A stretch of 54,829 nucleotides of DNA from the NCBI RefSeq assembly GCF_030548295.1, contig NZ_JAUOSB010000017.1, forward strand, positions 1 to 54,829, in the 5' to 3' direction. Both the position numbers and the translations under genes were made by a program. This DNA is from Wenyingzhuangia sp. 2_MG-2023 (lineage in GTDB: Bacteria; Bacteroidota; Bacteroidia; Flavobacteriales; Flavobacteriaceae). Below the pieces are notes generated by a model that worked only from the letters and a program-made list of their open reading frames with translations, was not told where the DNA came from and did not search any database. Every line of letters begins with the position of its first letter. Within the stretch, counting starts at the first letter, position 1. Shown here piece by piece: positions 5,257-22,569 of this stretch.

Positions 5257-5270
5257 GTGACAATTATCAT
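5257..5270. promoter_or_regulatory. Crp/Fnr-type operator upstream of the hemN operon
   Basis: The site reads GTGACAATTATCAT and contains TGA-N6-TCA, the half-site spacing of Crp/Fnr-family operators. Its centre is at 5263.5, which is 29.5 bases from the near edge of the TAnnTTTG element at 5293-5300. That places it around -43 from the expected transcription start, a class II activator position. The same motif at the same distance precedes ccoS (21682-21695). Confidence 0.68.
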
Positions 5271-5292
5271 TTTTCTATAGAGGGTTAGCTAA

Positions 5293-5300
5293 TAATTTTG
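5293..5300 (+). promoter_or_regulatory. TAnnTTTG -7 element of the hemN operon
   Basis: TAATTTTG matches the Bacteroidota -7 consensus exactly. Transcription would begin near 5307, giving a 20-base leader to the ATG at 5327. No -33 TTG is seen at the usual spacing, consistent with an activator-dependent promoter. Confidence 0.62.
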
Positions 5301-5326
5301 TTCTTAATCAATACCCAATCATACAC

Positions 5327-7108
5327 ATGGAAAAACATACCTTTCATATACCCGTTATGGGAATAGGTTATACAGCAGATAGCCCTTTAAAAGTTGCTCC
5401 TTATGGAATAGATTCTGTCATTTCATTGGTTGATGATATTTTATTAGAAAAACTTAGAAAATATTACACACAGTTAAACAATCTTAAATACACAGAAATC
5501 ACCGATAAAACTATTGATTATAGAGCCATCAGAATTACTGCTTATCTAAATTTAGTGCACGATTTGGTTCAAGAAAAAATCAATAAGTTAAAAAACGTAA
5601 CCACGTTAAAATGTCACACCCTGGCAGACTATATCAACCACCTACCTACTCCTTCCTATTTAAAACAGCAACTTCAAAACAGTAAAAATGTAGCAGAAGT
5701 ACAACAATTGATTCGAGAAAATTTATATCAAGGAGCTATTGACGTTAATATTATGACCAAAGTAGACAAAACCAATTATGAAAACAGAGAGGTTTTGCCA
5801 ATTGAGTTCAACGATGCACATGCTGCATTGAGAGGTTTTGCCAATTCCAAACTCAACTCATCTGTTGTTTTTTCCGCAGGAATGAATCCAAGACTGTACA
5901 ATTACCTAGCTACACTTGAAGGTTTTTTCCCTGATGATTTTGGAAACTTTCCAAAGAAAATTATTTTAAAAGTGAGCGATTATCGTTCCGCAATTATTCA
6001 AGGTAAATATTTGGCTAAAAAAGGGTTGTGGGTTTCTGAATACAGAGTAGAATCTGGTTTGAATTGTGGAGGTCATGCCTTTGCTACCGATGGTTTTTTA
6101 ATGGGACCTGTGTTAGAAGAATTTAAAGAAAATAGAGAACAGCTTTACAACGATACTTACGAGCTATTTTCCAATGCGCTTCGTTCTAAAAACAAAGAGG
6201 TCAGTCTTAACAAACCTGTTTTAAAAATATCAGCTCAAGGTGGTGTGGGTACTGCAGAAGAACATCAATTTTTATTAGAAACTTATCAATTGGATTCTAT
6301 TGGTTGGGGATCTCCTTTTTTATTGGTTCCAGAAGCAACTACAGTAGATGACAACACACTACAACAATTAGCAACTGCCAAAGAAAAAGATGTTTATCTA
6401 AGTAATATTTCTCCGCTAGGTGTACGCTTTAACAACCTAATAGGAAACACCAAAGACGAAAAAAAACAAGAAAACATTTTAAAAAACAGACCTGGAAGCG
6501 CTTGTCCCAAAAGACATGTTGCTCTTAATCAAGAATTTAAGAAAGAAGGTCTTTGCATTGCTTCTAGGGAATATCAATATTTAAAAATAAAGCAACTTCA
6601 AGAAAATGAATCTTTAAGTCCTATTCAACTAAACAAAGAAATTAACAAAGTAACCGAAAAATCATGTATTTGTGTTGGTTTGGGAACTTCTGCCCTACTG
6701 GCTTACGGAATTTCAACCAAAATAGAAGGTACAGGAGTATCGGTATGTCCGGGTCCTAACATAGCTTATTTTGATAAAAAAGTAAGTCTATTAGAAATGA
6801 TGAATCATATTTATGGAAAGAAGAATCTTTTACAAAATACCCAAAGACCTCATCTATTTGTCAAAGAATTGAACCTGTATTTAAACTATTTAGACGAGCA
6901 ACTTGAATTGGCTAAAGAGGATCTAACGTTGCAACAAAACAAATACTTAAACCGATTTACAGAAAATTTACAAAAAGGGATTGTTTATTATCAGCAAATT
7001 TTTCAAGATCAATTCAACAATCTATTTCAATCGGCAACATTAAACAGGTTGAAAGCACAATTTGAAGAATTAAAAAAAATACAACAATTGCAATTACAAG
7101 AAATCTAA
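5327..7108 (+). CDS. Uncharacterised 593-aa protein, TIM-barrel-like, co-transcribed with hemN
   Basis: Not confidently recognised. The protein is soluble, with no signal peptide. Segments ESGLNCGGH (243-250), SAQGGVGTAEEH (302-313) and IGWGSPFLLVPEATT (325-339) locally resemble phosphate- and flavin-binding loops of FMN-dependent TIM barrels such as nitronate monooxygenase; this is inference only. Seven cysteines (96, 247, 393, 410, 447, 449, 474) include C393, C410, CIC at 447-449 and CPGP at 474 in the C-terminal half, which could hold a metal or Fe-S centre. The last 100 residues are strongly helical. It lies 12 bases before hemN and behind a Crp/Fnr-type site, suggesting a redox role linked to haem synthesis or low oxygen. 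Confidence 0.9.
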   Translation: MEKHTFHIPVMGIGYTADSPLKVAPYGIDSVISLVDDILLEKLRKYYTQLNNLKYTEITDKTIDYRAIRITAYLNLVHDLVQEKINKLKNVTTLKCHTLADYINHLPTPSYLKQQLQNSKNVAEVQQLIRENLYQGAIDVNIMTKVDKTNYENREVLPIEFNDAHAALRGFANSKLNSSVVFSAGMNPRLYNYLATLEGFFPDDFGNFPKKIILKVSDYRSAIIQGKYLAKKGLWVSEYRVESGLNCGGHAFATDGFLMGPVLEEFKENREQLYNDTYELFSNALRSKNKEVSLNKPVLKISAQGGVGTAEEHQFLLETYQLDSIGWGSPFLLVPEATTVDDNTLQQLATAKEKDVYLSNISPLGVRFNNLIGNTKDEKKQENILKNRPGSACPKRHVALNQEFKKEGLCIASREYQYLKIKQLQENESLSPIQLNKEINKVTEKSCICVGLGTSALLAYGISTKIEGTGVSVCPGPNIAYFDKKVSLLEMMNHIYGKKNLLQNTQRPHLFVKELNLYLNYLDEQLELAKEDLTLQQNKYLNRFTENLQKGIVYYQQIFQDQFNNLFQSATLNRLKAQFEELKKIQQLQLQEI

Positions 7109-7120
7109 AAACTATTAGTT

Positions 7121-8479
7121 ATGGACATCGATCTTATCAACAAATACAACGTACCTGGACCAAGATACACTAGTTACCCTACGGTACCTCATTGGAATGT
7201 ACAAGACTTTAGATTGACAAAATGGAAAAAAAATCTTTTGGAATCTTATCATAAAAGCAACAAATCACAAGGAATCAGCTTATACATACATCTTCCTTTC
7301 TGTGATAGTATGTGTACTTTTTGTGGCTGTAACAAGAGGATTACTAAAAGACACGATGTAGAATCTCCTTATATAGATGCTGTATTAAAAGAATGGTCTA
7401 TGTATTTGAATCTATTGGATGAAAAACCCGTTATTAAAGAATTACATATTGGAGGGGGAACTCCCACCTTTTTTAGCCCTGAAAATTTAAAAAGTTTGCT
7501 AAGTTGTATTATCAATACCTCAACACTTGCAGAAAATTATGAATTTAGTTTTGAAGGGCACCCAAACAACACTACCAAAGAACATTTACAGACCTTGTTT
7601 GATTTGGGTTTTAAAAGAGTTTCTTTTGGAGTACAAGACTACAACAAAACAGTACAAGCAGCCATCCATAGAATTCAACCTTTTGAAAACGTAAAAAAAG
7701 TAACAGAATGGGCAAGAGAAATAGGTTACACTTCTGTAGGTCATGATATTATTTATGGATTGCCATTTCAAACGCTTACAGATGTAGAAAACACACTAGA
7801 AAAAACCAAGAGTTTGGCTCCAGACAGAATTGCATTTTACAGTTACGCACATGTGCCTTGGTTAAAAGGAAATGGGCAAAGAGGTTACTCTGAAGAAAAC
7901 TTGCCTCAAGGAATAGAAAAACTAATGATGTACGAAACTGGGAAAAAAATATTGAAAAACTACGGGTATTACAATATTGGTATGGATCACTTTTCATTAC
8001 CTACCAACAGTCTGTACCAAGCCTTAAAAAATCATAAACTGCATAGAAACTTTATGGGGTATACACACGCAAAAACAGAGGTGATGATTGGTTTGGGTGT
8101 TTCCTCTATTGGAGATAGCTGGAATAGTTTCTATCAAAACGTAAAAAACATTGAAGAATATCAGGAATTGGTTAAAAACAATATTTTTCCAATTGCCAAA
8201 GGACATATTTCCTCTAAAGAAGACCTTATTATAAGACAGCATATTTTAAACCTAATGTGCCATTACGAAACCAAATGGGATGAAGAAACCTTAAAAAGTA
8301 AAACTCTAGAAAAAGCTCCATTAAAAATGTTTCCTTTACTAAATGATGGATTGATTTCTATTTCTAAGTCTCAAATTAAAGTAACTGATAAAGGAAAACC
8401 ATTTATTCGAAACATTTGCATGGCTATAGACCAATATCTGGGAGATCAACCTCAGAATAAATTTTCAAAAACAGTATAA
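7121..8479 (+). CDS. hemN: Oxygen-independent coproporphyrinogen III oxidase (radical SAM)
   Basis: HemN converts coproporphyrinogen III to protoporphyrinogen IX without oxygen, using SAM radical chemistry in the cytoplasm. The radical SAM cluster motif is C61-x3-C65-x2-C68 within YIHLPFCDSMCTFCGC, preceded by GPRYTSYPT, which is typical of true HemN rather than HemW. Further signs are HIGGGTPTF, SFGVQD and the DHFSLP segment. Length of 452 residues is normal. It follows the unknown 593-residue protein by 12 bases in one operon and is closed by a terminator. The upstream Crp/Fnr-type site fits expression at low oxygen. Confidence 0.95.
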   Translation: MDIDLINKYNVPGPRYTSYPTVPHWNVQDFRLTKWKKNLLESYHKSNKSQGISLYIHLPFCDSMCTFCGCNKRITKRHDVESPYIDAVLKEWSMYLNLLDEKPVIKELHIGGGTPTFFSPENLKSLLSCIINTSTLAENYEFSFEGHPNNTTKEHLQTLFDLGFKRVSFGVQDYNKTVQAAIHRIQPFENVKKVTEWAREIGYTSVGHDIIYGLPFQTLTDVENTLEKTKSLAPDRIAFYSYAHVPWLKGNGQRGYSEENLPQGIEKLMMYETGKKILKNYGYYNIGMDHFSLPTNSLYQALKNHKLHRNFMGYTHAKTEVMIGLGVSSIGDSWNSFYQNVKNIEEYQELVKNNIFPIAKGHISSKEDLIIRQHILNLMCHYETKWDEETLKSKTLEKAPLKMFPLLNDGLISISKSQIKVTDKGKPFIRNICMAIDQYLGDQPQNKFSKTV

Positions 8480-15493: not shown

Positions 15494-15521
15494 AACTCTT
15501 AGAAAATTGTTAGAGTTTTTT
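15494..15521 (+). terminator. Possible terminator between convergent operons
   Basis: Stem AACTCT with AGAGTT followed by six T residues in the plus direction; the T run reaches the stop codon of the TauE/SafE-like gene. In the minus direction there is no T tract. It has no obvious plus-strand gene to serve. Confidence 0.4.
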
Positions 15522-16221
15522 AATGACAACCTACAGGAACCAAATGTATTTGCAAACTCAAGTCTGAAGGAGATACAAAAGCAATTCCTAAGCCCAAACC
15601 CCGTAAAACAAACATAACTCCAACAACCAACAACATTACAGGAACTGCTTTGTTAAAAACCGCTTTGAATTTAGCTGTGCTGATTAATTTGATTCCCATA
15701 AACAAAAACATTAATGGCAATGTACCCAAACCAAAAATAAACAAATACAAGCCTCCCTCCCATGCTGTTCCTAAAGCAATGGCTCCTATTAATGCCACGT
15801 ATAAAGTTCCACATGGCAACAAACCATTGAGCATTCCCAAACTAAAAAAATTTAGTAAAGATTTAGATTTTGCCAATCTTTGGTAACCATTCTTAAACAA
15901 ACTCAATACTTTAAATGTAGATTTTTGTTCCAAATAGCGTAAAACCTTTTTTTGAAATAAAGCAATAACAATCAATATAGCACCTGCTACAATAGACAAT
16001 GTTTGTTGCAATCCTGCCAACACAAATGCTCTTCCAAACAAACCAAACACAACTCCAATAGTTGCATAAGTAAACAACCTTCCCAAATGATAGGCAGAAA
16101 TTTTAAACCATTTTTCACGAGCAGTTCCCTTGTGTACTGGCAAAGCAAAAGCAATGGGTCCGCACATACCAACGCAGTGCAGACTACTTAACAAACCAAA
16201 AATAAAAGCGGAAGCAAACAT
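15520..16221 (-). CDS. TauE/SafE-like (UreH domain) membrane protein of the cbb3 operon
   Basis: Polytopic inner-membrane protein of 233 residues with about six hydrophobic segments. The first helix carries HCVGMCGP, the CxxxC motif found in this family next to cbb3 genes. Homologues at this position are annotated as sulfite exporter TauE/SafE family; a part in copper or metal handling for cbb3 assembly is often suggested, but the substrate is not established. Its ATG overlaps the ccoH-like stop by one base, so translation is coupled. Confidence 0.85.
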   Translation of the reverse strand: MFASAFIFGLLSSLHCVGMCGPIAFALPVHKGTAREKWFKISAYHLGRLFTYATIGVVFGLFGRAFVLAGLQQTLSIVAGAILIVIALFQKKVLRYLEQKSTFKVLSLFKNGYQRLAKSKSLLNFFSLGMLNGLLPCGTLYVALIGAIALGTAWEGGLYLFIFGLGTLPLMFLFMGIKLISTAKFKAVFNKAVPVMLLVVGVMFVLRGLGLGIAFVSPSDLSLQIHLVPVGCH

Positions 16222-16667
16222 TAAAAATAAAATTGTTCTTTTTGATAATAAGTCTTTTTAGGCTCTTTTGCATAATGCCAGGTAATAACAGCATTCCACC
16301 TCCCTTTGACCAATTCATTATCCGTTATTTTAATCTCATCGTTGTAAATTGCTTTGACAAAATCTAATTTGTCGTTAGAAGGTCTATAAAACTGAATTTC
16401 ACCAACAATTCCATCCTCATTTAAATTCGGAATTTTTACAGTCAATACATCATTCACTAATTCAAAAATTACTTTTTGAGACAAATCTTTTGCATTGATA
16501 GATTGATTGATGGTGCTCTGAAAATTCAACTCCTCTTGGTAATATTCTTCAGAAACCAAATTGTAATCGTATTCTTTTTGCGTAAACGTTTTAACTACAA
16601 AATACAGTATAAATGTTATAAAAGCGACAAATGTAATGACGATACTTGTTCCCCAATTGATTTTCAT
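16221..16667 (-). CDS. ccoH: FixH/CcoH family cbb3 oxidase assembly protein
   Basis: Protein of 148 residues with one N-terminal membrane helix (about 8-28) and a periplasmic beta-rich domain (VKIPNLNEDGIVGEIQFYRPS), the layout of FixH/CcoH. In this family it stabilises the assembling cbb3 oxidase. It follows ccoG after a 120-base gap and is translationally coupled to the TauE/SafE-like gene. Confidence 0.85.
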   Translation of the reverse strand: MKINWGTSIVITFVAFITFILYFVVKTFTQKEYDYNLVSEEYYQEELNFQSTINQSINAKDLSQKVIFELVNDVLTVKIPNLNEDGIVGEIQFYRPSNDKLDFVKAIYNDEIKITDNELVKGRWNAVITWHYAKEPKKTYYQKEQFYF

Positions 16668-16787: not shown

Positions 16788-18215
16788 TTACCATTTATTT
16801 TTAGGGCTTAAAAAATGTGTTTTAGTACTTGTAATTTCTTTATCACTCTGGTAAATTCCAAGTTCAACCGTTTCATTACTGTCCGTCAAATCTGACTCTG
16901 GAATTTCTATAAATACCGTTCCTTCGTAAATTGCTTGTTCTTTTAATAGCAAATGATCTGTTCCTACCAATTTTACTTTTCCATTAGGATGAGACAACAA
17001 CTGAAAGGATAATGAATCTATTTCTTCACTAGTTTTGTTCACCAATTTGTAGGTGTACACATTGCTAATCACTCTATTTTCCTTTACCTGATACAATTCC
17101 CCTGGCACTCTAAAAAAGTTAGCCTGTACATGACTTCTCACCGTTAATAAACTTATCAAAACAACAACCAATACAGTTAAAATAGCAGTGTAAGCTTTAA
17201 TTCTAACAGTAAATTCAAAAGGTTCGTTTTTCTCAATATTTTCTTCTGAAGCATAACGAATCAGTCCTTGAGGTTGGTTTGTTTTGAGCATCATAAAATC
17301 ACAAGCATCCATACAAGCGGTACAGTTTACACACTCCAACTGCGTTCCATTTCTAATGTCAATTCCTGTTGGACAAACTTCTACACACTGATCACAATCA
17401 ATACAATTTCCTTTTCCTACATCTTCTCTATTTTCATTTTTTCTGAACTTTGCTCTTCCTTTTTTTCCTTCTCCTCTAATGTAATCGTAAGCTACAATAA
17501 TAGATTTATTGTCTAACAAAACTCCTTGTAAACGTCCGTAAGGACAAGCAATAATACATACTTGTTCTCTAAACCACGAAAAAATAAAGTAAAATACTCC
17601 AGTAAAAATCCAAATACTAACAAAACCACCTATGTGTTCGGACACTGGTTCTGTGATGATTTTTAACAAACGATCACTACTAATAATATAAGCCAAAAAC
17701 ACATTAGAAATCACAAAAGAAATGAGCAAATACAATGCGTGCTTAAAAACTCTTTTCTTTATTTTTTCAGCATTCCAATCTTGTTTTGCCAACCTTATTT
17801 GTGCTCCTTTATCTCCTTCTATCCAATAATCTATTTTGCGAAACACCATTTCTAAAAAAATAGTTTGAGGACAAATCCATCCGCAAAAAACACGTCCATA
17901 AATCACTGTAAATAAAATGATAAATACCACACCGACCAACATAGACAGTACTAACAAATAAAAATCTTGTGGCCAAAAAGGGAATCCTAAAATGTGAAAC
18001 TTTCTTTCTACAACATTGAACAAAAAAAGCTGATTCCCATTGATTTTTAAAAATGGAGCAGACAATAAAAATGCCAACAAAGCCATACTAACCCACGTTC
18101 TATATCTGTAAAACCTCCCCTTTGGTTTTTTAGGATATATCCACGAACGCTTTCCTTTCTCATCTATTGTTGAAATAGAATCTCTAAAGACTTCTTTATT
18201 ATCTGCATCCATCAT
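16788..18215 (-). CDS. ccoG: Cytochrome c oxidase accessory protein CcoG (FixG)
   Basis: Membrane-bound 2[4Fe-4S] protein of 475 residues; CcoG homologues reduce copper for cbb3 biogenesis. There are about five membrane helices, with CGWICPQTIF and CIIACPYGRLQ between them. Two ferredoxin-type clusters follow (CIDCDQCVEVCP and CVNCTACMDACD). The C-terminal third is the periplasmic Ig-like FixG domain. It starts 10 bases after the ccoP stop. Length is normal. Confidence 0.95.
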   Translation of the reverse strand: MMDADNKEVFRDSISTIDEKGKRSWIYPKKPKGRFYRYRTWVSMALLAFLLSAPFLKINGNQLFLFNVVERKFHILGFPFWPQDFYLLVLSMLVGVVFIILFTVIYGRVFCGWICPQTIFLEMVFRKIDYWIEGDKGAQIRLAKQDWNAEKIKKRVFKHALYLLISFVISNVFLAYIISSDRLLKIITEPVSEHIGGFVSIWIFTGVFYFIFSWFREQVCIIACPYGRLQGVLLDNKSIIVAYDYIRGEGKKGRAKFRKNENREDVGKGNCIDCDQCVEVCPTGIDIRNGTQLECVNCTACMDACDFMMLKTNQPQGLIRYASEENIEKNEPFEFTVRIKAYTAILTVLVVVLISLLTVRSHVQANFFRVPGELYQVKENRVISNVYTYKLVNKTSEEIDSLSFQLLSHPNGKVKLVGTDHLLLKEQAIYEGTVFIEIPESDLTDSNETVELGIYQSDKEITSTKTHFLSPKNKW

Positions 18216-18225
18216 AACAAAACAA

Positions 18226-19092
18226 CTACTTTTTTTCTACTTTGTATATTTCTCCTTGTGGTTCTTTAGGAGCTTCTGGAGTGGTTCCTTGCAAACTAAC
18301 TACGTATGCAGCAAGTTGTTGTAATTTTTGTGGACTGAAACTATTTTTCCAAGCAATCATTCCTTTTCCAGGTCTTCCTCCTTCGGCAATGGTATTGTAT
18401 ACATTCTCAATACCTCCTCCTAAAATCCAATAATCATCTGTTAAATTAGGTCCTATTTTTCCACCTCCATCAACAGCATGACACACAGCACAGTTACGTT
18501 TGAACAATTTTTTTCCTTCTTCATTACTTCCTGTATCCAAAGCGGTCAAATCCACCTTTTCTTGTGTAGCTTCATAAGCTGCTATTTCTTTTTTTGCCTG
18601 AGCTACTTCTGCCAAATATTCATCTTTTTGAGTATCTCCATCCAACACGTGGTAATACACAATGTATCCAAATGCAAATACAATCGTCATGTAAAAACCG
18701 TACAACCACCATGGTGGTAAATTGTTGTCCAATTCACGAATTCCATCGTAATCGTGGTTCAAAATAATTTCTTCTTCTTCTTCAATAGGTTTTGCATCAG
18801 ACAAACTTTTTACAATGCTTTTCCAATCTGACCAATCTATTTTTTTAGCTTCTTGTTTTTCCAAAAAGGCTTCTTTCTCTTCTTCTGTAGACAAAGACAA
18901 ATACAAGTTGTTCATTTTGTTTACCACATACCTTGCGCTAAACAACGCACCTACAAAAATTAAGTACAAGGTAATTTTTAAAGGAAGTAAAGCGCTGTAT
19001 CCATTTCCAGATGGCAACATCCATTCTATGATAAGACCCACCACCACACTTAAGATGACAAAGCCGACTATTTGTTTGTTTTTTTGATTCAT
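18226..19092 (-). CDS. ccoP: cbb3 oxidase subunit III CcoP, single c-type haem
   Basis: Electron-input subunit of cbb3 oxidase. There are two hydrophobic segments near the N-terminus, then a third near LPPWWLYGFYMTIVFAFGY (about residues 125-150) and a periplasmic cytochrome c domain with CAVCH near residue 200. An axial methionine is probably supplied by RPGKGMIAW. Only one CxxCH is present, while the proteobacterial CcoP has two; mono-haem CcoP is common in Bacteroidota. The frame ends close to ccoG and starts 12 bases after ccoQ. Confidence 0.93.
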   Translation of the reverse strand: MNQKNKQIVGFVILSVVVGLIIEWMLPSGNGYSALLPLKITLYLIFVGALFSARYVVNKMNNLYLSLSTEEEKEAFLEKQEAKKIDWSDWKSIVKSLSDAKPIEEEEEIILNHDYDGIRELDNNLPPWWLYGFYMTIVFAFGYIVYYHVLDGDTQKDEYLAEVAQAKKEIAAYEATQEKVDLTALDTGSNEEGKKLFKRNCAVCHAVDGGGKIGPNLTDDYWILGGGIENVYNTIAEGGRPGKGMIAWKNSFSPQKLQQLAAYVVSLQGTTPEAPKEPQGEIYKVEKK

Positions 19093-19270: not shown

Positions 19271-21442
19271 TTATTTTGTTTTTATATCGGTTCCTAATCT
19301 TTGTAAATAAGCTATCAAGGCTACTATTTCTCTTTCTTGAATAGGTACAAATTCCTTTCCTGAAGCTTTTGCTTCTGTTTGAGCACTTTCGTAACTTTCT
19401 ACAAAAGAAGGATCTTGTCTTAAATTCTCTGCAATAATATCTGCCTGAGCACTCATACTTTTCTGAGCATTGTCTATTTCATATTCGGTATAAGGAACTC
19501 CTAAAGAAACCATTGTTTTTAATTTGTCTTCTGTAGCACTCTTATCCAAGGTATTTTTTAACAACCAAGCGTAAGGTGGCATGATAGAACCTGGAGACGT
19601 ACTTTGTGGATCTAACATATGGTTGAAATGCCAACTGTCTGAATATTTCATCCCCACTCTGTGCAAGTCTGGCCCAGTACGTTTGGATCCCCACAAAAAT
19701 GGATGATCATACACAAACTCTCCTGCTTTAGAATATTCTCCATAACGCTCAACTTCTGAACGGAACGGACGAACCATTTGAGAGTGACAGCCCACACAAC
19801 CTTCACGTATGTACAAATCTCTACCTTCTAATTCTAAAGGAGTATAAGGTTTAACACTGCTAATGGTTGGTATGTTAGATTCTACCATCAACGTGGGAAC
19901 AATTTGCACAATTCCCCCTATCAAAATAGCAATGGTTGCAAAAATGGTCAACTGCACAGGTCTTCTTTCCAATTGCTGGTGCCAAGTTTCTCCTGCCAAT
20001 CTTCCTTTTCTAATTCTTTGCAATGGAGCTGCTTCTGCCAAAGTATCCTCTACTTCAGATCCTTTTTTGATGGTTGCTACCATGTTGAACAACATAACAA
20101 TTGCCCCAGAAATATACATAGTCCCTCCAATAGCACGCATCCAATACATAGGTATAATTTGTGTTACTGTTTCTAAAAAGTTACCGTATACCAATGTTCC
20201 ATCTGGGTTGAATTGTTTCCACATAGATGCTTGTACAAACCCTGCAATGTACATTGGAAACGCGTATAAAATTATCCCTAGAGTCCCCAACCAAAAGTGG
20301 ACGTTTGCCATTTTGGTAGAATGCAATTTGGTTTTAAACATAATTGGAACCAACCAATAAATCATCCCAAAAGTCATAAAACCATTCCATGCCAAAGCTC
20401 CTACGTGTACATGAGCAATAATCCAATCTGAGAAGTGTGCAATAGCATTTACACTCTTTAAAGACAACATAGGTCCTTCAAACGTAGCCATACCATATCC
20501 TGTAATGGCAACCACCATAAATTTTAAAACAGGATCTGTTCTTACCTTGTCCCAAGCACCTCTTAAGGTCAACAATCCATTGATCATTCCTCCCCAAGAT
20601 GGAGCAATTAACATTACAGAAAAAGCAACTCCTAAATTCTGAGCCCAATCTGGCAACGCAGTATACAATAAGTGGTGAGGTCCTGCCCAGATGTAGATAA
20701 AAATCAACGACCAAAAGTGAACAATAGACAATCTGTAAGAATACACAGGTCTGTTTGCTGCTTTAGGCACGTAATAATACATCAACCCTAAAAACGGAGT
20801 GGTTAAGAAAAAAGCCACCGCATTGTGTCCGTACCACCATTGCACCAAAGCATCTTGCACTCCTGCATATACTGAATAACTTTTGGTAAAAGACACCGGC
20901 AATGCCAAACTGTTAAAAATGTGCAATACCGCTACCGTAACAAATGTTCCTAAATAAAACCAAATAGCTACGTACAAATGACGTTCTCTACGTTTTAAAA
21001 TAGTTCCAATCATGTTGATACCAAACACTACCCAAATCAGTGCAATTGCAATATCTATTGGCCATTCCAACTCAGCATATTCTTTACTTGTAGAATATCC
21101 TAAAGGCAACGTTATAGCTGCTGCAACTATAATAGCTTGCCAACCCCAGAAGTTGATATTACTTAACAAATCATTAAACATTCTCGCTTTTAGCAATCGT
21201 TGTAATGAGTAATACACCCCAGCAAAAATTGCGTTACCTACAAAAGCAAAAATAACCGCATTGGTGTGTAAGGGTCTCAATCTACCAAAACTCAACCAAG
21301 AAATACCTTGTGTAAGCTCTGGAAAGATGAACATAAAAGCTAATAATAGTCCCACGGACATCCCTATGAGTCCCCAAAACATTGTTGCGTAAATAAATTT
21401 CTTTACGACCTTATTATCGTAATAAAATTGCTCTTTTTCCAT
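19271..21442 (-). CDS. ccoNO: Fused cbb3 oxidase subunits I and II (CcoN-CcoO)
   Basis: Haem-copper oxidase core of 723 residues in which the catalytic CcoN (about 1-480, multiple helices with WWYGHNAVAFFLTTPFLG, HHLLYTALPDW and HVHVGALAWNG carrying the haem and CuB histidines) is joined to the mono-haem CcoO (about 500-723, GCVGCHSQMVRPF and GPDLHRVGMKYSD, with Met in SIMPPYAWL). It reduces oxygen to water with high affinity while pumping protons. The fusion is typical of Bacteroidota. It lies 7 bases after ccoS. Confidence 0.97.
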   Translation of the reverse strand: MEKEQFYYDNKVVKKFIYATMFWGLIGMSVGLLLAFMFIFPELTQGISWLSFGRLRPLHTNAVIFAFVGNAIFAGVYYSLQRLLKARMFNDLLSNINFWGWQAIIVAAAITLPLGYSTSKEYAELEWPIDIAIALIWVVFGINMIGTILKRRERHLYVAIWFYLGTFVTVAVLHIFNSLALPVSFTKSYSVYAGVQDALVQWWYGHNAVAFFLTTPFLGLMYYYVPKAANRPVYSYRLSIVHFWSLIFIYIWAGPHHLLYTALPDWAQNLGVAFSVMLIAPSWGGMINGLLTLRGAWDKVRTDPVLKFMVVAITGYGMATFEGPMLSLKSVNAIAHFSDWIIAHVHVGALAWNGFMTFGMIYWLVPIMFKTKLHSTKMANVHFWLGTLGIILYAFPMYIAGFVQASMWKQFNPDGTLVYGNFLETVTQIIPMYWMRAIGGTMYISGAIVMLFNMVATIKKGSEVEDTLAEAAPLQRIRKGRLAGETWHQQLERRPVQLTIFATIAILIGGIVQIVPTLMVESNIPTISSVKPYTPLELEGRDLYIREGCVGCHSQMVRPFRSEVERYGEYSKAGEFVYDHPFLWGSKRTGPDLHRVGMKYSDSWHFNHMLDPQSTSPGSIMPPYAWLLKNTLDKSATEDKLKTMVSLGVPYTEYEIDNAQKSMSAQADIIAENLRQDPSFVESYESAQTEAKASGKEFVPIQEREIVALIAYLQRLGTDIKTK

Positions 21443-21449
21443 AAATTAA

Positions 21450-21635
21450 TTATTCGATTATTGTTTCTGTTTTATTCTCTTTTTTCTGAACACTCAACGT
21501 ATCGTTAAACAAAATTCTCATGGCTGGAGTTTCATGATCTTCAAACTGACCATTTTTAACCGCAAGAAAAAATACCGCCAAAAAAATGATGGCCACAAAA
21601 AGACTTACAATGATTAAAATATAAATAACTCCCAT
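21450..21635 (-). CDS. ccoS: cbb3 oxidase maturation protein CcoS
   Basis: Protein of 61 residues starting MGVIYILIIVSLFVAIIFLAVFF, a single membrane helix, then GQFEDHETPAMRILFND, the characteristic CcoS tail. CcoS is needed for cofactor insertion into cbb3 oxidase. It is the first gene of the operon here; the copper ATPase gene ccoI, usually just upstream, is absent from this window. Confidence 0.93.
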   Translation of the reverse strand: MGVIYILIIVSLFVAIIFLAVFFLAVKNGQFEDHETPAMRILFNDTLSVQKKENKTETIIE

Positions 21636-21651
21636 GCTGAATTGTTTACAA

Positions 21652-21659
21652 CAAAAGTA
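21652..21659 (-). promoter_or_regulatory. TAnnTTTG -7 element of the cco operon
   Basis: Plus-strand CAAAAGTA reads TACTTTTG on the minus strand. Transcription would begin near 21646, about 11 bases before the ccoS ATG. Confidence 0.62.
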
Positions 21660-21681
21660 TTGGGAAGGCTTTCTCTAAAAA

Positions 21682-21695
21682 ATGACTATTATCAT
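21682..21695. promoter_or_regulatory. Crp/Fnr-type operator upstream of the cco operon
   Basis: ATGACTATTATCAT contains TGA-N6-TCA and differs from the site before the hemN operon in only two of 14 positions. Its centre (21688.5) is 29.5 bases from the near edge of the -7 element, exactly the distance seen at the hemN operon. Confidence 0.68.
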
Positions 21696-21987: not shown

Positions 21988-22569
21988 ATGAAACTGAATT
22001 TTGATTCTATATTAAAGGGAATAATTAGCAATGTGATAAATGCACAAGAATTAATAGATGAATCGGAATTACTTTTTAAAAATGACAAATTTGCAAGAGC
22101 ATATTTATTAAGTCATTTTGCAATTGAAGAAGCTTCTAAATGTGCAATGCTACTAAAATTATTATCATTTATTGTCTGGGAAGAAAAAATTGACGAGGTA
22201 GTTGTTCGTAAAAGATATCACAACCATAAAGAAAAAATTCAAAACTTTAAACTATTAAACATATTCAACACTGATAAAGAAATTGATGTGAATATAATGA
22301 ACAACCTAAAAAATCAATCAACATACGTTACTTGGAATAATGAAAATAACTTTAAGTTACCATCTGAATGTATTAATGAAGAGGATGCTAAAGAATTATT
22401 TGAAATGACTTTAAAGTATGTGAAAATTTTCACAAAAATTACCATTCAATTTTCTAATGATAAAGAGAAAAGTATTGATTATATTAAAAACAATAAGGAT
22501 AATCCTTTTATAAAAGACATTATAGATTACGAAAAAAATAGAACTAGCAGAAAAATTAAATTTGGGTAA
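21988..22569 (+). CDS. AbiV family abortive infection (HEPN) protein
   Basis: Protein of 193 residues matching the AbiV family, first known from a lactococcal phage-resistance gene. AbiV proteins are predicted HEPN RNases. The N-terminal helices carry RAYLLSHFAIEEASKCAMLLK (37-57 region), the family hallmark, and R74-x5-H80 (RKRYHNH) fits the HEPN catalytic pattern. No membrane segment is present and the residue bias is strongly K, N and I. It is a stand-alone gene between two repeat-like spacers; no partner antitoxin was seen. Confidence 0.8.
   Translation: MKLNFDSILKGIISNVINAQELIDESELLFKNDKFARAYLLSHFAIEEASKCAMLLKLLSFIVWEEKIDEVVVRKRYHNHKEKIQNFKLLNIFNTDKEIDVNIMNNLKNQSTYVTWNNENNFKLPSECINEEDAKELFEMTLKYVKIFTKITIQFSNDKEKSIDYIKNNKDNPFIKDIIDYEKNRTSRKIKFG

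Follow-up and report, generated by a model that had tools for sequence, protein, structure and literature searches.

A putative FNR-like class II promoter arrangement at low-oxygen genes in many Flavobacteriaceae

The window, i.e. the whole stretch of 54,829 nucleotides of Wenyingzhuangia sp. 2_MG-2023 DNA that was analysed, carries two Crp/Fnr-type palindromes, one upstream of hemN and one upstream of the cbb3 oxidase operon that begins with ccoS, each followed at an identical distance by a promoter -7 element. The same spacing recurs at orthologous genes of the family and, given published promoter coordinates (PMC9723704), it places the operators at the class II position. We consider it likely, with a probability of roughly three in four, that both sites serve class II activation by an FNR-like protein of the type represented by the Wenyingzhuangia protein L010, and so act as a low-oxygen switch. 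The sequence comparisons support an FNR-like class II arrangement that appears common to many Flavobacteriaceae, extending an earlier note on this DNA in which a shared geometry at the two operons had been proposed.

Promoter geometry in the window

The palindrome GTGACAATTATCAT (5257..5270, + strand) is followed by a TTT just past the operator (5272..5274) and by the -7 element TAATTTTG (5293..5300). On the minus strand, the palindrome before ccoS (21682..21695) reads ATGATAATAGTCAT in the operon direction and ATGACTATTATCAT on the + strand, and is followed by a TTT (21678..21680, by our placement) and by the -7 element TACTTTTG (21652..21659, as read on the minus strand). Both palindromes have the TGA-N6-TCA form of a Crp/Fnr operator, and both -7 elements are exact matches to TAnnTTTG, the -7 element of Bacteroidota sigma-A promoters. 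All four elements lie where the earlier note had put them, with 29.5 bases between operator centre and element in each case. The agreement at 12 of 14 positions that it gave for the two palindromes holds with both read on the + strand; in the direction of the respective operons it falls to 10 of 14, which matters little for a palindromic site.

The textbook class II position for Crp and FNR is an operator centred at -41.5. Transcription starts have been mapped in Flavobacterium psychrophilum, where TAnnTTTG spans -12 to -5 (PMC9723704). With the first T of the element at -12, both operator centres are therefore predicted at -41.5 and not, as formerly suggested, near -43, and both TTT triplets at -33 to -31, in the T-rich -33 region. 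On the same coordinates, transcription would start near 5305 (+) and 21647 (-), giving leaders of ~22 and ~12 bases, respectively.

The window has a GC content of 0.326 and contains, on both strands together, 17 TGA-N6-TCA palindromes and 88 TAnnTTTG elements. The composite TGA-N6-TCA-N23-TAnnTTTG occurs exactly twice, namely at the hemN-side and ccoS sites, against a mean of 0.04 in 100 dinucleotide shuffles of the window, none of which reached two, in agreement with the earlier view that the matching positions exceed chance.

The minus-strand operon comprises ccoS (21450..21635; TIGR00847 above cut-off), a ccoNO fusion for cbb3 oxidase subunits I/II (19271..21442), a gene for a ccoP-like cytochrome c subunit (18226..19092; FixP_N over the Pfam cut-off, TIGR00782 ccoP below its cut-off), ccoG (16788..18215; TIGR02745 above cut-off) and ccoH (FixH; 16221..16667). 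The last gene in the same direction, encoding a DsbD_2 membrane protein (15520..16221), is probably also a member. An AbiV-family (HEPN) abortive-infection gene (window 21988-22569) lies just upstream of the cco operon.

On the other side, the operon that the earlier note named after hemN (7121..8479, +; oxygen-independent coproporphyrinogen III oxidase, TIGR00538) has hemN as its second gene; the first encodes a 593-residue protein (5327..7108, +) with no match among Pfam or NCBIfam models at E 0.001. This protein belongs to a strongly conserved family present in 91 of 249 family genomes. When 250 bases before the chosen start were searched in 30 loci, the best matches out of the 91 genomes, the gap-23 site was found in 20, including that of the window (17 with TAnnTTTG and three with another first base); two of the remainder had near versions, three a palindrome without the element and five none. 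hemN follows in only 3 of the 30 loci, a count repeated with a looser motif and including one locus with fewer than 1200 bases downstream, so hemN was rejected as the usual partner of this gene. Structure prediction gave a low-confidence model (mean pLDDT 63.4), the best Foldseek match of which is the enoyl reductase domain 4cw5 (E 5.9e-4, TM 0.23 and 0.29), and a PDB profile search returned one match at E 0.79. The likeness to enoyl reductase weakly suggests a lead and nothing further, and the protein may possibly be a low-oxygen enzyme.

Spacing across the genome and the family

In the Wenyingzhuangia genome TGAN6TCA-N23-TAnnTTTG occurs nine times, against three in a backward control, and three of the nine (L001, L004 and L009) fall within longer frames and look like chance matches. 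With TGAYN4RTCA as the palindrome, gaps of 8-38 together gave 15 matches versus 10 in the backward control, hence no clear excess over the whole range; at gap 23 there were 4 of the 15, with none in the control. Two of the four are the window sites, a third precedes a YceI gene (L007) and the fourth lies by a thioredoxin/OsmC/ArsP-permease cluster (L003); the identities of the YceI, RNase Y and L003 genes were borne out on recheck. Taken alone, this evidence is modest, because two of the four sites are those that prompted the question. Allowing one mismatch raised the matches to 25, versus 13 in the control; one is the ccoI site TGATAATAATCA-N23-GATTTTTG, which is divergent from an FNR-like gene, and the same scan revealed a second -7-like element on the opposite side of the L003 palindrome, toward the thioredoxin gene. 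We also observed TGAGATGAATCA-N23-TATCTTTG, with an unusual half site, before a class II fumarase gene (L008, C200:141674-141716).

It is the family-wide counts, not those of the single genome, that are decisive for the spacing. TGAYN4RTCA-N23-TAnnTTTG occurs 1402 times in 199 family genomes, whereas the ten other gaps of 18-28 combined give 758 occurrences (mean 75.8 per gap), making gap 23 ~18 times commoner than the mean neighbouring gap; the backward control gave 29 at gap 23 and 413 at the ten other gaps. No exact composite was found in 26 of the 199 genomes, and the Wenyingzhuangia genome, with four exact sites, is below the average of related genomes. Spacing is thus kept over many promoters, as in class II Crp/FNR-dependent promoters. 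The random scatter that the earlier note had named as counting against it was not seen, as gap 23 dominates and stands before a set of low-oxygen genes.

Chance likeness between two AT-rich intergenic regions has in its favour the low GC content of the window and the small difference between the genome and its backward control over gaps 8-38. Set against it are the shuffles of the window, the conservation at hemN, ccoS and yceI and the behaviour of the control gene (see below), and the family-wide spacing counts, forward and backward, refute it; we regard its probability as negligible.

Conservation at individual genes

The loci compared for each gene were the best matches of each search rather than a random draw, with at most 30 for hemN, yceI and rny. 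We searched 300 bases before the codons for PRYTSYP for hemN, 450 bases before ccoNO for ccoS, and 350 bases before the start of the match for yceI and rny; one mismatch in the -7 element was permitted for ccoS, yceI and rny.

The exact composite lies directly upstream of hemN in 26 of 29 relatives, and no spacing other than gap 23 was seen over gaps 0-60 in the 30 loci. The other four of the 30 comprise the Wenyingzhuangia locus, where the site is before the preceding gene, two without a palindrome and one with TACTTTCG. The hemN counts and those for the 593-residue protein come from different draws of genomes.

For ccoS, 80 loci gave 41 exact composites, 16 with one mismatch, two at gap 22, one at gap 24 and 19 without a composite, one further locus being too short; three of the 19 are titled or named as members of the Flavobacteriaceae. 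For 55 of these loci (L027-L078, L085, L089 and L092), a subset defined by title and by order in the list, the corresponding numbers were 36, 13, two, one, two and one. A ccoI-like frame is present in 61 of the 80 loci, with gap 23 and NAnnTTTG upstream in 33 and absent in 28. The name ccoI is based on a cation-ATPase domain match of a partial frame, a weak copper-ATPase match below cut-off, and context. By distance, 37 promoters were assigned to ccoI, 33 of them before a confirmed ccoI-like frame and four unconfirmed.

At yceI, 30 loci including that of the Wenyingzhuangia genome comprised eight with an exact composite, 19 with one mismatch, two with a palindrome only and one with neither. 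By contrast, the control gene rny (RNase Y) had the composite in 0 of 30 loci and a bare palindrome in four; when the search was re-anchored on a conserved peptide, the composite was found in 0 of 29 loci and a bare palindrome in nine, one locus not being anchored. The fixed operator spacing on low-oxygen genes that the earlier note had proposed is therefore upheld, both by the dominance of gap 23 and by its presence before hemN, ccoS, the ccoI-like gene and yceI but not rny.

Consensus and the first base of the -7 element

From 125 promoters (42 of ccoS, 37 of the ccoI zone, 26 of hemN and 20 of the 593-residue gene) we derived the consensus aTGAYAwwTRTCATaTTTT, followed by TAnnTTTG. The T after TCA is present in 99 % of them and T at -33, -32, -31 and -30 in 86, 90, 79 and 81 %, respectively, positions that played no part in the selection of the promoters.

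The T-rich -33 region directly after the site is what might be expected were the palindrome to repress, or to serve mainly as part of that region, rather than as an activator site. A position that stays constant across many genes and genomes fits class II activation instead, as repressor sites would probably not need to hold one position, and under oxygen limitation in F. psychrophilum cbb3 is strongly up and haem enzymes are also up (PMC9723704). We consider this alternative to be very improbable.

The first base of the -7 element differs between genes. It is other than T in 30 of the 33 confirmed ccoI promoters (e.g. L032 and L046) and in 18 of the 19 one-mismatch yceI promoters, i.e. in 18 of the 30 yceI loci (e.g. 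L236 and L237), in comparison with 1 of 42 ccoS promoters and 3 of 20 promoters of the 593-residue gene; such variants were looked for in the 30 hemN loci and none was found. A base other than T at this position may mark promoters that lean more on the activator.

Candidate regulator

The Wenyingzhuangia genome encodes four HTH_Crp_2 proteins above cut-off. One of these, L010, is an FNR-like protein encoded divergently from the ccoI-like gene, with a site of the same kind between the two. Among solved structures, those closest to it are of a Porphyromonas gingivalis Crp/Fnr protein (2gau) and of Aliivibrio fischeri FNR (PDB 5e44, 5cvr); with the latter protein it is homologous almost end to end and shares the same fold. 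Its best NCBIfam model is Fnr (NF008365) at 96.5 bits, below the cut-off of 228.

We aligned 31 sequences of this type, i.e. the Wenyingzhuangia protein and 30 of 32 hits in the 80 ccoS loci; the Crp hits of L033 and L039 were left out as their frames ran on, and L088 was also left out later. Residues 12 and 15 are cysteine in 30 of the 31 rows (one row being gapped), and residues 61 and 114 in all 31. The C-x2-C pair C12 and C15, together with C114, aligns with cysteines of FNR, including the CxxC motif and a later cluster cysteine of A. fischeri FNR, which we take to be cluster ligands. In contrast with A. fischeri FNR, the L010 type lacks the third N-terminal cysteine (C29 in E. coli FNR numbering), the aligned residue not being cysteine in the 31 rows, and at position 61 has an additional cysteine that does not vary. 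Because one defining cysteine is missing, we class L010 as FNR-like rather than as a strict four-cysteine FNR, and an oxygen-labile cluster is thus not assured. A tentative reading, which we hold to be possible but less probable than not, is that a cluster is held by the rearranged set C12, C15, C61 and C114, with a ligand in the effector domain taking the place of the third N-terminal one; in the same joint reading these proteins would form a separate FNR-like clade running a Flavobacteriaceae low-oxygen regulon at one class II position on the -33/-7 promoter of the phylum, and a conserved base other than T at -12 would keep a ccoI/yceI subclass weak and so make it lean more on the activator.

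Occurrence of the sites was compared with that of the protein in the 199 genomes, the tallies not being controlled for genome size or for reduced genomes. The 117 genomes with a clear L010-type match (E at most 1e-50) have a mean of 8.97 sites, each having at least one; the mean is 5.83 in the 58 genomes in which the Crp matches are all weaker, nine of these being without sites; and the 24 with no match, many of them small, have a mean of 0.58, with 17 lacking sites and seven having at least one. These tallies indicate that the sites go together with a Crp/Fnr protein, for which the L010 type is the best, not the sole, candidate; the persistence of sites in the 58 genomes with weaker matches implies that other Crp/Fnr proteins may use them.

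Class II Crp/Fnr operators for which the usual binder is another member (the L011 type, or L012/L013), or which several members share, would be consistent with that persistence in genomes without a clear L010 type and with the number of HTH_Crp_2 proteins above cut-off. A second FNR-like protein, L011 (C211:77040-77255), starts with an FNR-like C-x2-C-x4-C pattern, and its best NCBIfam model is likewise Fnr, below cut-off. The L010-type gene adjoins the ccoI-like gene in divergent orientation, a site of this type separating the two, which argues for L010 instead, as does the finding that none of the 117 L010-type genomes lacks sites, in a tally sorted by L010-type match alone; overall, we judge another or a shared usual binder to be rather unlikely. 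The L011 gene is flanked by a gene for an NMT1-like substrate-binding protein on one side and one for a pyridine-nucleotide oxidoreductase on the other.

Mechanism and relation to known systems

In the mechanism that we favour, class II activation by an L010-type protein, a dimer of this FNR-like Crp/Fnr protein would bind aTGAYAwwTRTCAT centred at -41.5, where the operator adjoins the T-rich -33 region and lies 23 bases before TAnnTTTG. The bound dimer would aid RNA polymerase in starting transcription at low oxygen, switching on hemN for haem precursor synthesis, ccoS-ccoNO-ccoP-ccoG-ccoH for the cbb3 oxidase, the ccoI-like cation pump and the YceI operon. We infer that the protein divergent from ccoI is the usual binder, that it activates, and that it would sense oxygen via an iron-sulphur cluster on its conserved cysteines.

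E. coli FNR class II promoters are alike in having palindromes with TGA/TCA cores at -41.5 and in controlling low-oxygen genes. They differ in the operator, which is TTGATnnnnATCAA rather than ATGAYAwwTRTCAT, and in the core promoter, which has sigma-70 -35/-10 elements in place of the Bacteroidota -33/-7 elements. In Proteobacteria, FixK/ANR-type regulators control cbb3 and hemN, i.e. the same target genes, but in another phylum, with another core promoter and by another regulator subgroup. An Anr box before hemN is described in PMC6588701. Sigma-A promoters of F. psychrophilum likewise have TAnnTTTG, at -12 to -5; neither Crp nor Fnr is named in the main text of PMC9723704. In another study (PMC8510549), CRP/FNR homologues in Ignavibacteria, Flavobacteriales and Saprospiraceae genomes were predicted to sense carbon availability.

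Our literature searches turned up no description of this operator from Flavobacteriaceae; an earlier mention is possible. To our knowledge, how Bacteroidota sense a fall in oxygen has been little worked out. One motif with one spacing, a candidate protein and a short list of targets together offer an oxygen regulon that could be tested directly in a laboratory flavobacterium that is not a pathogen, and the -41.5 activator rule could help to interpret further promoters in the family.

Variant arrangements

Some loci depart from a single operator with a single element. Tandem palindromes 22 bases apart occur before ccoS in L075, L086, L095 and L101, the nearer one being at gap 23, and L101 has tandem palindromes further upstream as well. 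In two Lutibacter loci (L070 and L074) the ccoI and ccoS sites are all at gap 22. A genome-wide shift of spacing in this genus was considered and rejected, as 24 of the 34 listed sites of Lutibacter oceani (G249) are at gap 23, six at gap 22 and four at gap 24; the shift to gap 22 is therefore local. Single palindromes flanked on both sides by -7-like elements at gap 23 are present in L033, L038, L039, L041, L054 and L068, and likewise in the Wenyingzhuangia genome at C12:82155-82228, as if one dimer might serve two divergent class II promoters.
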